The notes: generated from the sequence alone by a model not told the origin. Shown: positions 25,125 to 32,221, counted from the stretch's first letter. The stretch is 36,307 nucleotides of DNA from Devosia equisanguinis (GCA_945862355.1 CAMAYR010000018.1:1-36307); one strand, 5' to 3'. Numbers and translations are program-made.

Positions 25125-26201
25125 TTGGCGACTTCATGGCAGCGGAATGCGGAGGAAGCTTTGACGGGTACGCTCGACATGGGTGTTCAGCTGGCTGCAA
25201 GTGCCGTTCGGTTCGGCGTGTTCTATGGCGTCAACCAGGTCATGGACCGTCAGGCGCGGCTTCTCGGTCAGCAGGGGTCCTACAAGCCGAAGCGGCCGGT
25301 GCCCTCGCGGCAGGCGTTGATGGCGTCGCTCGGGGAATTGTTTCTTGCCGATGCCGCGAACGTGCGGCGCGGGATTTATCCGCCGATGGAGCAGGAGCCG
25401 GGAGGCATTGGCGAGCTCGCGGCGCGTGTAAGAGCAATGATGGCTGATCTGCCCGGCGCGCTCGAACGCCGGGAGACGGGGGCGGCGGACAGCGCGAGGA
25501 GCGAGGCGCCGGCGGCAGGTTTACCCGACTACTACGTGCAGGACTTCCATTTTCAAGACGGCGGTCATCTCTCCGATGTATCGTCGCGGCTCTACGATGT
25601 GCAGGTCGAGACGTTGTTCTACGGCGCGGCCAATACGATGCGGCGCGCAGCACTGCCCGCGATTGCGCGCGAGATCGCGGGCCGCGATCAGCGCCGCATG
25701 TCGCTCCTCGACGTAGCGTGCGGCACGGGCCGCTTTCTGCGTCAGGTTCGAACCGCCTGGCCAGCGCTCCAACTGACCGGAATCGATCTGTCGGAAGCCT
25801 ATCTCCGCGAGGCGCGCCGGCACATGGCCGAACTGCGGCCCGCTGCCTGGCTCGAAGGCAACGCCGAGGCGATCCCCTTAGCGGACGCGAGCCAGGACAT
25901 CGTGACGTGCGTCTATCTTCTCCACGAGCTGCCGCAGGATGTGCGTCGGACGGTAGCCGCCGAGATGGCACGCGTGCTGAAGCCGGGTGGTCTGTTGGTC
26001 TTCGTCGACAGCCTGCAGATGGGCGACCGCCCCGGCTGGGACGGAATGCTCGAGGCGTTCCCCGTGCGGTTCCACGAGCCCTACTTCAGAAGCTACGCCA
26101 TCGAGGACCTGGGCCGGATGTTCAACGAGCTGGGGCTGGCGGTGGAGGCGACGAGCCTGGCGTTTCTGTCGAAGGTGGTCGTCTGCCGGGCGCCGCGCTG
26201 A
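25125..26201 (+). CDS. SAM-dependent methyltransferase, class I
   Basis: A 358-residue protein with an unassigned N-terminal part (1 to about 185) followed by a Rossmann-type methyltransferase domain. Motif I is LLDVACGTGRF (about 194-204); then come GIDLSEAYL, GNAEAIPLADASQDIV and VLKPGGLLVFVD. The N-terminal segment PDYYVQDFHFQDGGHLSD precedes the core and may be the substrate-binding cap. The start is uncertain: TTG at 25125 has no good ribosome-binding site, and an in-frame ATG at 25179 is possible. The last 80 bp overlap the minus-strand gene ending at 26122. The substrate is unknown. Confidence 0.82.
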   Translation: MATSWQRNAEEALTGTLDMGVQLAASAVRFGVFYGVNQVMDRQARLLGQQGSYKPKRPVPSRQALMASLGELFLADAANVRRGIYPPMEQEPGGIGELAARVRAMMADLPGALERRETGAADSARSEAPAAGLPDYYVQDFHFQDGGHLSDVSSRLYDVQVETLFYGAANTMRRAALPAIAREIAGRDQRRMSLLDVACGTGRFLRQVRTAWPALQLTGIDLSEAYLREARRHMAELRPAAWLEGNAEAIPLADASQDIVTCVYLLHELPQDVRRTVAAEMARVLKPGGLLVFVDSLQMGDRPGWDGMLEAFPVRFHEPYFRSYAIEDLGRMFNELGLAVEATSLAFLSKVVVCRAPR

Positions 26202-26922
26202 CGTCGTTCAGGCGCGGTCTCGCGGCACCCTCGAAGATTGCGCGGTTGAGCGCTGCCGCGCCGAGATCCTTGGCACTGGACAAGATCCGGATCCCCTCGG
26301 CTGCGTGTGCGTCGGCGTTGGCGACGATCCGCAAATTGGCGGCAACCAGCGCGGGGCCCGGATCCGGCCCGAGCGAGCCGATCTCCGCGATCAACAATCG
26401 GTCCGGAAAGCGGCCCGCCGCCTCGACGACGAATTGGCGCTGGATGGGGGTGGCCTCGTCCGTCACGATAACAACGATGCGCGCCGAAGCCGCCGCGGCG
26501 AGCCGCATCGCGTCAACCATCGTTTGCGGCCGCTCTGTGCTCGCCCGCAGCGGCATCACGCGCACGCCCGGGGCCTGGGGCGACTCTGCTGCGATCCGGC
26601 TTGCGTAGAGTGTCGGACACGTCGGCTGCACCGACACCCGCGCAGCGCACACGCCATGCGGACGGCGGTCTCCGTCGACGAAATCCCAGCCGACCAGCTC
26701 GCCTTCGCCGTCGCGCGCCAGCCGCGCCGCGATAGCCGGCCGCGTGTAATCGATGCCGCTGCCGATGATCGCGACCGTTATCCCGCCGGGATCGGCGCCG
26801 GGTGGAACGCGTGGTTTCTCCGTTGGCGTCTGAGACAGGACCGTGTTGGCGAGCAGAGCCACGGCAGCCGCCGAAAGCAGCGGCCCCGCCCGACGCCCTT
26901 TCCCCTGGCGATCACGCTTCAT
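26122..26922 (-). CDS. Degenerate subtilisin-fold (S8-like) secreted protein
   Basis: A 266-residue protein with a basic, then hydrophobic N terminus (about 11-30, likely signal or anchor) and a subtilase-like core. VAIIGSGID with D58 matches the strand carrying the catalytic Asp. The block where subtilases have HGTHVAS reads CPTLYAS here (C102), and GVRVMPLRA is the usual next strand. No GTS-type serine block is visible. It therefore looks like a catalytically dead S8 domain, unless alignment misleads me. A Pro/Ser-rich tail ends the protein. Its ATG overlaps the mobB stop (ATGA), so it belongs to the fdhD-mobA-mobB transcript. Its 3' end overlaps the convergent methyltransferase by 80 bp. 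Confidence 0.7.
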   Translation of the reverse strand: MKRDRQGKGRRAGPLLSAAAVALLANTVLSQTPTEKPRVPPGADPGGITVAIIGSGIDYTRPAIAARLARDGEGELVGWDFVDGDRRPHGVCAARVSVQPTCPTLYASRIAAESPQAPGVRVMPLRASTERPQTMVDAMRLAAAASARIVVIVTDEATPIQRQFVVEAAGRFPDRLLIAEIGSLGPDPGPALVAANLRIVANADAHAAEGIRILSSAKDLGAAALNRAIFEGAARPRLNDVSAAPGRRPPSTETPGSSPPPPAPAR

Positions 26923-27446
26923 GCACGTGCTCGCGCAGCGAGCTTCAAGTGCGCTTCGACGAAATCCGCGATCGTCGCGATGTCGTCGAGCGCAAAGACG
27001 GGCACGGTCTCGCCCACCACTGAATGATCGGCCGCGACAGCGATGACCGTCGGGTCCTCCCTCGATAAAGGCCGCTGCTCGCGGGAGGCCGTCCGGCGTG
27101 CCTCGATCTTGGCTATCGGGTGGCTCTTGTAGCCTTCGACGACGACGACGTCGCACGGCGCCAGCGCAGCGATGACGTCGGCGAAATCCGGCTCCGGTGC
27201 ATCGTGCAACTCGGTGACGAGCGCCCAGCGTTCAGATGAGACGATGGCAACCTGGCCCGAGCCTGCGCGCCTGTGGCGTGCGCTATCGGTGTCGCCGTCG
27301 TCGATCTGGAAAGCGTGATGGGCATGTTTTACACTCGCAACCCGGTAACCGCGGCGCGTGAACTCCTCGATCAATCGGACGGCAAGGGTGGTCTTGCCGG
27401 AGTTCTTCCAGCCCGCGATGCCGATGAGCGGTGGCAGCTTCGTCAT
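26919..27446 (-). CDS. mobB: Molybdopterin-guanine dinucleotide adapter protein
   Basis: A 175-residue P-loop GTPase-like protein that assists MobA in making the Mo-bis-MGD cofactor. The P-loop is GWKNSGKTT (about residues 12-20), followed by SVKHAHHAFQID, DSARHRRAGS, and DVVVVEGYKSHPIAKIE, all typical of MobB. The chosen ATG overlaps the mobA stop (ATGA), and the stop overlaps the start of the next gene in the same way. The longer upstream frame is a mobA shadow. Length is usual for the family. Confidence 0.95.
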   Translation of the reverse strand: MTKLPPLIGIAGWKNSGKTTLAVRLIEEFTRRGYRVASVKHAHHAFQIDDGDTDSARHRRAGSGQVAIVSSERWALVTELHDAPEPDFADVIAALAPCDVVVVEGYKSHPIAKIEARRTASREQRPLSREDPTVIAVAADHSVVGETVPVFALDDIATIADFVEAHLKLAARARA

Positions 27447-28147
27447 GCGCCGGCCGCCTCGATCAGTGCCATGCACCGACGTGCCTCGGCCAACTCGTCG
27501 GGTGTATTGGCGTTGAAGAACGGGTCGATGGAACGACCCTCCACCTCGATCATGTCGAATGCCACGGGCACCGTGCCGTGCTTGTCGGTCCAGGCGAGCA
27601 CTTTGCGCAGGCCGCTGAGGAGTGCGGCCTCGAGATCGTCGGCAAGCGCGATCGGCCACAAGCCGATCACGGGATGCAGATCGCCGTCCGATTGCGCGAT
27701 GGCGATGGCGTTGGGCTGGTCGGTTACCGCTGCCGCGAGGCGGCCGACGAGATCACGCGGCAGGAACGGCGCGTCGGCCGATGCTGTAACGATCCAACGA
27801 GTTCCGGTCGCGTTCTCTGCAGCCCAGCGCATTCCCGCAAGAACGCCGGCGAGCGGGCCCACGTACCCCTCGATGGTATCTGCTACGACGGGCAGTCCGA
27901 AACCGGCAAAGCGGACGGGATCGCCGTTGGCGTTGATCACGAGCGGCCCGACCTGGGGGGCTAATCGCGCGATGACGTGGGCGAGCATCGACTTGGCGCC
28001 GATGTCGAGCAAGCCCTTGTCGCCACCGTGCGGATCGGCACATGCATCCGAGCGGGCAATGGGGAACATGCGCCGCGACAGCCCACCGGCGAGGATGACG
28101 CCGGCTATGGCTGGCGGAGGGCTCGAATGCGCGTCAGTGTTCGGCAT
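27443..28147 (-). CDS. mobA: Molybdenum cofactor guanylyltransferase
   Basis: A 234-residue nucleotidyltransferase that joins GMP to molybdopterin to form MGD. The family signature LAGGLSRRM (about 19-27) is present, but GGDKGLLDIG follows only after about 14 extra residues (PIARSDACADPH region); most MobA proteins have RMGGxDK with no gap. Further marks: INANGD, VVADTIEGYVGPLAGVLAG, SADAPFLP and the final PFFNANTPDEL. The start overlaps fdhD by 14 bp and the stop overlaps mobB, so the three are co-translated. Probably functional despite the insert, since the residues on both sides are conserved. Confidence 0.94.
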   Translation of the reverse strand: MPNTDAHSSPPPAIAGVILAGGLSRRMFPIARSDACADPHGGDKGLLDIGAKSMLAHVIARLAPQVGPLVINANGDPVRFAGFGLPVVADTIEGYVGPLAGVLAGMRWAAENATGTRWIVTASADAPFLPRDLVGRLAAAVTDQPNAIAIAQSDGDLHPVIGLWPIALADDLEAALLSGLRKVLAWTDKHGTVPVAFDMIEVEGRSIDPFFNANTPDELAEARRCMALIEAAGA

Positions 28148-29024
28148 CTGGGACACTGCTCTTGCGGCGGTGCTTGCTGTCCTCATCGTCGACGCGCGCG
28201 AGGTCGGCATCGAATACGATGCGCTCAGCTCCCGACAGCGCCACGAAGCGCTTGCCGCGCGCCCGGCCGATGAGAGTGAGGCCAGTTTTGCGGGCGAGCT
28301 CCACCCCCCAGGCCGTGAAACCCGACCGCGACACGAGAATGGGGATGCCCATCTTGACGGTCTTGATGACCATCTCGGAGGTGAGCCGGCCGGTCGTGTA
28401 GAAGATCTTGTCGTGCGCGGGGACGTTGTTGACGAGCATGTAGCCGGCGATCTTGTCGACAGCGTTGTGGCGGCCGACATCCTCCATGTAGACGAGCGGC
28501 CGGTCCTCCTCGCACAACACGCAGCCGTGGATGGCGCCTGCCTTGAGGTAGAGGCTCGGCTCGGTGTTGATCTTGCGGGTCAGTTGATAGAGCCAGGACG
28601 TGCGGATGCGCGCAGCCGGCGAAAGCTCTATCCTGTCGAACTCCTGCATCAGGTCGCCGAAAACGGTCCCTTGCGCGCAACCCGACGTCTGGATCTTTTT
28701 CTTGAGCTTGTCCTCGTAGTCGGTTTGCCGCGCCGTGCGCACGACGATCGTCTCGATCTCGGGCTCATAGTCGATGGCGGTGATCTCGTCGTCGGCGCGC
28801 AGCATGTTCTGGTTCAGGAGATAGCCCACGGCGAGCAGATCTGGATGGTCGCCGATCGTCATCATGGTGACGATCTCGCGCGCATTGAGGAACAGGGTCA
28901 GGGGCCGCTCGGTGACGACGGGCGTCACGATGGCGCGGCCGTCGTGATCGATGCCCTCCACGGCGACGGACAGACGGGGATCGTCGGGTGTCGGGCGAAC
29001 CGCGAATTGGGCGAGCTTTGTCAT
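28134..29024 (-). CDS. fdhD: Formate dehydrogenase sulfurtransferase FdhD
   Basis: A 296-residue protein that transfers sulfur from the cysteine desulfurase IscS to the Mo/W-bis-MGD cofactor of formate dehydrogenase. Conserved parts: TERPLTLFLN, the sulfur-carrier Cys116 in SGCAQGT, GAIHGCVLC, YMEDVGRHNAVDKIAG and TTGRLTSEMV. E. coli has a CxxC here; this protein keeps only the first Cys (C-A-Q-G), the one reported as essential. A GTGAGAAG site before the ATG at 29024 supports the start. It leads the mobA-mobB operon. No formate dehydrogenase subunit is in the window. Confidence 0.94.
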   Translation of the reverse strand: MTKLAQFAVRPTPDDPRLSVAVEGIDHDGRAIVTPVVTERPLTLFLNAREIVTMMTIGDHPDLLAVGYLLNQNMLRADDEITAIDYEPEIETIVVRTARQTDYEDKLKKKIQTSGCAQGTVFGDLMQEFDRIELSPAARIRTSWLYQLTRKINTEPSLYLKAGAIHGCVLCEEDRPLVYMEDVGRHNAVDKIAGYMLVNNVPAHDKIFYTTGRLTSEMVIKTVKMGIPILVSRSGFTAWGVELARKTGLTLIGRARGKRFVALSGAERIVFDADLARVDDEDSKHRRKSSVPDAEH

Positions 29025-29245: not shown

Positions 29246-30421
<1,176 letters not shown>

Positions 30422-30806
30422 GCTGTGCACCATCCGGTTGCAGTCGGACGAGGGGGCTGGCGCAAGCTGGCCCTTTCGCACATCTGGCGCATGACTGGCT
30501 CGAATATCTGGCTCGAATATCTGGCTCGAATGTCCGGGGTCGCGGTTCCGTCGGACCTCGATGCTCCCACCCTCGACGTCGCGGCAGCCCTTGATTGGTG
30601 GCTGGGCCGAACTGCTGCGGGCCGTCCATGGCACGTTGCCATTGGACAGCCTAAGCGGATGCAGCGATCCGGAGAAATCCCGGAGCCAAGGCTGGCCCGC
30701 CTTCGCGGACCACGACGGGTGTTGGGCCAAGTATACCGAGTTGGCGCAGATGTCGGGGCAATCATGTCCCCGGAACCGTCGTGATGACGGCTACGCGAGG
30801 TCGGGG
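30422..30806. other. 385-bp stretch with triple 13-bp repeat, no clear gene
   Basis: Between the broken TRAP gene and pyrE (convergent). Open frames of about 100 codons exist on both strands, but none resembles a protein I know and all overlap each other. A 13-bp unit repeated three times lies at 30496-30534. No terminator with a T-run is apparent. Confidence 0.4.
30496..30534. repeat. 13-bp tandem repeat, three units
   Basis: The unit tggctcgaatatc occurs at 30496-30508 and 30509-30521, and as tggctcgaatgtc at 30522-30534 (one change). It is immediately 3' of the TRAP pseudogene, outside supported genes. The unit length is not a multiple of three, which argues against a coding role. Confidence 0.85.
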
Positions 30807-31537: not shown

Positions 31538-32221
31538 ATGTTCAATCCCGAAAGCCCGCCGGAGTTGTCCGTCACGCGCTGGATAAACACGCGTCAACCG
31601 CTGTCGCTCAAAGCGCTCGAGGGCAAGGTCGTGATGGTGATGGCCTTCCAGATGCTGTGCCGTGGGTGCGTCGAGCATGGCCTGCCGCAGGCGAGGAAGG
31701 TCGCAGAGCAGTTCAGCGACGATGAGGTCGTCGTGATCGGCTTGCACAGCGTGTTCGAGCATCACGCGGTCATGACGCCGGCGGCGCTCGAAGCGTTCAT
31801 GCACGAGTACGGCTGGCCGTTTCCGGTGGCGATCGACACGCCGGCTGCGGAAGATGCGGGCGGACTTCCCGCTACGATGAAGGCCTACGAGATGCGGGGA
31901 ACGCCGACGATCCTGCTGTTCGATCGCCAGGGGCGATTGCGGCGGCACTATTTCGGCCATGTCGAGGATATGCGGCTATCGGCCGAGCTGATGGGGCTTG
32001 CCATCGAAGATGCCGAGGCGCCTCGGGAGGCCTCTGTCGCGCTCGAGCGGCGGATGCACGCCACGCTGCTCGATCCGCACGCCCAGCATCATCATGGGCA
32101 TGATCACGATCATGATCATGAGCATGGGGAAGGCTGCGGGTGCGACCACGATCATGGCCACGATCATGGCCACGATCATGCTCATGGCCATGATCACGAC
32201 CACAAAGCCACGCAGAAGTAG
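31538..32221 (+). CDS. Thioredoxin-fold redoxin with His-rich metal-binding tail
   Basis: A 227-residue protein. Residues 1 to about 160 form a thioredoxin-like (TlpA/peroxiredoxin-type) domain: the active-site CRGC (C41, C44) after VVMVMAFQML, and the cis-Pro loop MRGTPTILLFD (P123). Residues 181-222 form a tail of alternating His and Asp/Gly with 19 His and a CGC pair (C200, C202). Such tails bind Ni, Zn or Cu in HypB, SlyD and ZIP-type proteins. No signal peptide is seen, so it is probably cytoplasmic, where it could couple thiol redox chemistry with metal buffering. A GAAAGG site precedes the ATG. It is monocistronic. Confidence 0.87.
   Translation: MFNPESPPELSVTRWINTRQPLSLKALEGKVVMVMAFQMLCRGCVEHGLPQARKVAEQFSDDEVVVIGLHSVFEHHAVMTPAALEAFMHEYGWPFPVAIDTPAAEDAGGLPATMKAYEMRGTPTILLFDRQGRLRRHYFGHVEDMRLSAELMGLAIEDAEAPREASVALERRMHATLLDPHAQHHHGHDHDHDHEHGEGCGCDHDHGHDHGHDHAHGHDHDHKATQK
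32085..32210 (+). repeat. Low-complexity His/Asp codon repeat
   Basis: The His-rich tail is coded by simple repeats of catgatcac/catgaccac type, including three near-identical runs of ccacgatcatgg at about 32146-32180. The run is in frame and inside the gene. It is prone to slippage, so tail length probably differs among strains. Confidence 0.8.

Follow-up and report, generated by a model that had tools for sequence, protein, structure and literature searches.

What is a predicted-exported relative of the subtilisin-like (S8) proteases doing at the end of an operon whose other genes make a cytosolic cofactor, and what keeps it there once it can apparently no longer cut? The question is raised by a stretch of Devosia equisanguinis DNA (GCA_945862355.1 CAMAYR010000018.1:1-36307), which we call the window and which comprises the whole 36,307 nucleotides analysed; in it, fdhD, mobA and mobB are followed by a fourth gene of this kind. 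The answer that we favour, with a probability of about 0.8 and on the strength of sequence comparison, is that the protein is an S8 pseudoprotease which probably arose from an active subtilase, has been retained in the molybdenum cofactor (Moco) locus under purifying selection and would act in a non-catalytic role.

A fourth gene at the end of fdhD-mobA-mobB

The three cofactor genes are firmly identified, with FdhD, MobA and MobB recognized by Pfam and NCBIfam together and all of them above the curated NCBIfam cut-offs (Table 1), and the initial annotation was right to assign them to the cofactor. It had also described four minus-strand genes overlapping by 14, 4 and 4 bp, with which the gene coordinates agree. 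Both 4-bp overlaps read ATGA, and the start codon of the pseudoprotease gene lies inside the one that it shares with mobB. Known fdhD-mobA-mobB operons have the same three overlapping genes, whereas here a fourth, predicted-exported gene is added at the 3′ end. The papers searched report no such fourth gene in these operons, and none of them brings a subtilase together with mobA/mobB, or fdhD and mobA together with Hyphomicrobium.

At its own 3′ end the pseudoprotease gene meets a convergent SAM-methyltransferase-like gene, which adjoins it in genome G002 too. On the other side of the operon, a dctP-like gene for a TRAP-type solute-binding protein runs divergently from fdhD. It contains one in-frame stop, either a true nonsense mutation or an assembly error, at a place where the relative L108 reads through. 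This gene is followed by a 13-bp tandem repeat (CTGGCTCGAATAT) in 2.8 perfect copies, and farther along the window lie 12- and 24-bp repeat arrays rich in CATGAT/CACGAT, which could be read as a His/Asp-rich stretch comparable with those of some metal-handling proteins.

Table 1. Features of the window (positions counted from its first nucleotide).
Feature	Position	Strand	Basis or remark
fdhD	28134-29024	minus	TIGR00129, 150.2 bits vs cut-off 140.9; PF02634
mobA	27443-28147	minus	TIGR02665, 196 bits vs cut-off 151.85
mobB	26919-27446	minus	TIGR00176, 157.9 bits vs cut-off 76.2; PF03205
S8 (subtilisin-like) pseudoprotease gene, predicted exported	26122-26922	minus	266 aa
N-terminal hydrophobic signal segment, residues 1-31	26830-26922	minus	without lipobox or clear Tat motif
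G54 codon, catalytic Asp position of S8 proteases	26761-26763	minus	alignment with homologs
D58 codon, +4 position, not catalytic	26749-26751	minus	alignment with homologs
RDGEG loop, residues 70-74	26701-26715	minus	alignment of dead and intact members
GWDFVDGD, residues 78-85	26668-26691	minus	D80/D83/D85 spaced as thermitase-type Ca2 ligands
C102 codon, catalytic His position	26617-26619	minus	not conserved in relatives
SAM-methyltransferase-like gene, convergent	25125-26201	plus	3′ end overlaps pseudoprotease gene by 80 bp
TRAP-type solute-binding protein gene, dctP-like	29252-30421	plus	twin-arginine signal; in-frame stop near 29921
13-bp tandem repeat	30488-30537		after dctP-like gene
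12- and 24-bp repeat arrays	32085-32199		

Subtilisin-like scaffold and catalytic positions

The window protein, taken alone, matches no Pfam or NCBIfam family, PF00082 of the S8 proteases included, and neither these collections nor PADLOC has a name for it; it is through its family that homology to S8 proteases is established. Searched against PDB sequences, a family profile that also includes intact members (those that keep the catalytic triad) retrieves thermitase-type subtilases, the best being 1dbi (E 1.3e-18), and PF00082 gives 72-98 bits in five tested intact relatives as well as 57 and 23 bits in less eroded dead ones. An AlphaFold2 model of the window protein, built from a 20-sequence alignment (mean pLDDT 68.6; residues 51-180 mostly above 79, residues 201-251 below 50 and unreliable), is placed by Foldseek with subtilisins first and reaches a VIA-align Z of 11.4 to subtilases. 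For L033, a better conserved relative, the pLDDT is 80.7 and the Foldseek match to subtilases has an E of 9.5e-09. The alignment behind these structures was seeded with real S8 proteases and favours that fold; because S8 proteins in the alignment bias the model, the more independent evidence comes from the match of the profile to PDB sequences. Profile and predicted model agree on the S8-like fold that had been proposed, and no other fold emerged.

The residues tell a different story from the scaffold. Intact members, found in other families of the order, carry Asp (DTG/DSG), His (RHG), the oxyanion Asn (SAGN) and Ser (GSS, GTS or GAS), and 26 relatives retain all of D, H, N and S. In all 63 dead members, the Asp position holds G, T, A, S, L or I and no His occurs at the His position, while the oxyanion Asn is left in two of the 63 and Ser occupies its column in two. 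The window protein has G54, C102, no oxyanion Asn and no GTS/GSS block, and does not qualify as an active S8 protease. One correction to the initial annotation concerns D58, which it had taken for the catalytic Asp of a kept Asp block: intact proteins read D-[T/S]-G-V-N-Y where the window protein reads G-S-G-I-D-Y, which puts the catalytic position at G54, and the D58 column holds Asp in 61 of the 63 dead sequences, against Asn or Ala in intact homologs. Its other observations held, in that C102 aligns with the His of real S8 proteases and the GTS serine block is missing; proper alignment uncovered no intact triad. Asp, His, oxyanion Asn and Ser are all lost. The view that the Moco operon encodes a dead, exported S8-like protein is supported, and protease activity has, to judge from these residues, probably been lost. 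A hydrophobic segment precedes the core in 58 of the 63 dead homologs at the cut-off used, and the pseudoprotease is most likely periplasmic after predicted Sec export.

With thermitase and protease AK.1 (S8, PF00082) the protein shares the fold and a WDFVDND calcium-site motif, and the D, H, S block order of these enzymes is the same in the intact relatives. It differs from them by the missing Asp, His, Ser and oxyanion Asn, by the absence of a prodomain (the core follows directly after the signal segment), by a strongly diverged C-terminal half, by its fixed RDGEG loop and by the want of a PF00082 match of its own. The kept motif, WDFVDxD, has the same spacing as the Ca2 ligands Asp56/Asp59/Asp61 of protease C2, a site common to thermitase and AK.1 (PMC12838322), and D80, D83 and D85 are retained in 63, 48 and 59 of the 63 dead members, respectively.

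Two pseudoprotease systems from other bacteria are useful for comparison. MamO is a putative serine protease with a trypsin-like scaffold, whereas the scaffold of the window protein is S8 and not trypsin-like. In magnetotactic bacteria, this dead serine protease activates another protease and binds metal (PMC4794232); the two share a bacterial serine-protease scaffold whose active site has degenerated, with roles (proposed ones for the window protein) other than catalysis, and MamO differs, scaffold apart, by its di-histidine metal-binding motif and its magnetosome system. CspC and CspA of Clostridioides difficile, which take part in spore germination (PMC6636752), are S8 pseudoproteases with sensing or regulatory roles. 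The Csp proteins, however, keep a prodomain and a jelly-roll insertion, lose two triad residues, and are spore proteins of another phylum in an unrelated gene context. The window protein represents a new family of pseudoproteases whose scaffold is known.

Intact relatives and linkage to Moco genes

Loss of the triad is found in members from the window's taxonomic family and in one member of another family, L107, and intact-triad members are thinly spread across the class. In a maximum-likelihood tree of 89 sequences, a single branch (support 100/98, recovered in all 200 bootstrap trees) splits 63 dead from 26 intact members; the tree has no outgroup, gives little resolution of the branch order among the dead members and places L107 on a long branch. 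Because the triad is ancestral in S8 proteases, the intact state is taken as the older one.

Many intact members have an extension of 130-200 aa before the core, and most of their genes are convergent with a gene for a trypsin-like/TPR protease, in some cases doubled and with PDZ. Such pairing of a gene for an exported S8 subtilase with a convergent trypsin-like/TPR gene recurs in Alphaproteobacteria (L079-L102 and, at class level, L199 and L203), and no description of it was found in the papers searched. Phage defence was considered and rejected: PADLOC has no match for the window protein, and the intact pair yields only partial subtilase and trypsin-like matches and carries signal segments. 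In L079 (f18) and L081 (f9), fdhD-mobA-mobB is followed by an intact S8 gene and then by the convergent trypsin-like/TPR gene, an arrangement that appears to be the intermediate step. Within the window's family, 5 of 103 genomes match the trypsin-like partner at all, and only G333 and G033 do so strongly. These two genomes have a second, intact-type S8 (L142 and L128, respectively) beside the trypsin-like gene, and the G033 copy contains stop codons; such extra copies may be contamination or a second acquisition.

Linkage to the Moco genes extends far beyond the window. Matching homologs were found in 32 of 60 related genomes, most of them directly 3′ of mobA-mobB. Across 297 genomes of the order, a profile of 20 members (A1) distinguished the family from ordinary subtilases, and matches above about 115 bits place a member in 63 of the 103 genomes and 22 of the 25 genera of the window's family, a count that could miss members without the conserved N-terminal block on which the profile leans. 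The gene was not found in three genera and most g10 genomes of that family. Its position in the carriers is directly 3′ of mobB in 47, directly 3′ of mobA in 5 (genus g20) and elsewhere in 11, eight of which have moaA about 0.2-2.6 kb downstream on the same strand. Where it follows mobB, the conserved core begins 44-242 nt past the mobB stop, mostly less than 120. Three further families of the order show the linkage as well, and the survey of conserved mob linkage that the initial annotation had called for thus rules out an oddity of this one genome. In five g20 genomes (L110, L138-L141) mobB was not found, and mobA and the pseudoprotease gene are kept side by side. In the non-carriers examined, the place 3′ of mobB is taken by moaA, moeA, a cobS-like gene or nothing alike, with no divergent copy of the pseudoprotease gene.

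Constraint and candidate roles

Comparison of coding sequences demonstrates that the dead protein is under constraint. Pairwise dN/dS among dead members ranges from 0.06 to 0.30 in seven genera, against 0.07-0.13 among intact relatives (simple NG86 counts, with several dS values saturated), and conservation of the dead protein exceeds that of MobA in genus g20. Identity in the N-terminal block is 54% among dead and 56% among intact members, whereas over the remainder of the protein it is 26% among dead and 52% among intact members. The sole fully invariant columns in the 63 dead members are R70, D71, G72, E73, D80 and P88, and conservation stays below 65% in every Ser, His and Cys column. In the RDGEG loop of the dead members, R, D, G and E occur in 63/63 and the last G in 62/63, and DGE varies in the intact ones; since L079, L081 and L103, all intact, already have RDGEG, the motif has been fixed rather than newly gained. 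An S8 scaffold, a lost triad and selection that keeps the protein are the marks of an S8 pseudoprotease, and because a protein without any cutting residue is still preserved by selection, the exported dead protein of this family very likely has a new, non-cutting job.

The history that we favour would start from an exported subtilase that was still active and whose gene, as in the relatives, stood convergent with one for a trypsin-like/TPR protease. This ancestral pair would have stood directly 3′ of fdhD-mobA-mobB, a setting that persists with an intact triad in two other families, and the trypsin-like partner and all subtilase catalytic residues would have been lost on the line to the window's family, while the subtilase gene kept its translational coupling to mobB and continued under purifying selection. 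Its product would now act non-catalytically, in binding, as a scaffold or in regulation, and the working part may be the conserved N-terminal half, with the RDGEG loop and the retained subtilase calcium motif.

A specific form of this explanation, which we entertain tentatively, has exported bis-MGD molybdoenzymes as the clients of the protein, which would serve them in the periplasm as a chaperone, as an adaptor or in quality control and would derive from a protease that once carried out quality control on them. The genomic address fits: the gene lies beside mobB, mobA or moaA in 60 of the 63 carriers, mob linkage extends to the two families whose protease is still intact, and the lost trypsin-like/TPR partner is of a type often active in quality control. 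However, inertia can preserve gene position, and the gene is kept in the five g20 genomes without mobB and absent from many that have mobB. Co-occurrence with molybdoenzymes, which the initial annotation had suggested checking, gave a divided result, with a weak association overall (molybdopterin oxidoreductase matches averaging 7.0 in carriers vs 5.8, p 0.04 uncorrected for kinship) and its reverse within genus g10, where carriers have fewer of these enzymes. The proposal that carriers have more molybdoenzymes was dropped as weakly and inconsistently supported, and so was a link to periplasmic nitrate reductase, NapA being rare (8 of 103 genomes) and missing from the window genome. The chaperone idea is therefore possible by its address, and presence or absence adds little to it.

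Metal binding as the function itself, with the Asp-rich loop and RDGEG holding calcium or another metal much as MamO binds its own, appears unlikely, though it has both the spacing of thermitase-type Ca2 ligands (PMC12838322) and the MamO precedent (PMC4794232) in its favour. The same Asp residues occur in the intact proteases, so the calcium site may merely stabilise the fold. We give very little credence to a protein that is still an enzyme, with another nucleophile or a changed active site: C102 does stand at the His position of the window protein, but it is not conserved, which speaks against a Cys-based enzyme, and the invariant columns (R, D, G, E, D, P) include no Ser, His or Cys. Least credible of all is a passenger in frame only through its position at the 3′ end of the operon; its catalytic residues and C-terminal half are eroded and the gene has gaps in its distribution, but a decaying pseudogene is ruled out by the dN/dS values and refuted likewise by the invariant columns, with open frames and retention away from mobAB in g23 and others also against it.

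Returning to the retained, non-catalytic pseudoprotease, its most far-reaching version is one that we consider improbable as a whole. In it, a protease encoded within a Moco operon would have become a dedicated periplasmic factor without catalysis, which assists exported molybdoenzymes as a binder, as an adaptor or by sensing metal; RDGEG and the calcium loop would form the surface through which it works, and the stages from active protease to pseudoprotease would still be found alive at one address.

To our knowledge, the bacterial pseudoproteases described so far are few, and for almost none of them does the active ancestor survive at the same place in the genome. In the present case, intact proteases, linked intermediates and a dead family occur in one order, and individual residues show how constraint has shifted. 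At this locus, the reading frame of a predicted-exported protein also overlaps an operon for a cytosolic cofactor. The protein may be connected with exported molybdoenzymes or with metal, and if it does serve exported molybdoenzymes, it would add an extra-cytosolic step to a pathway thought complete.
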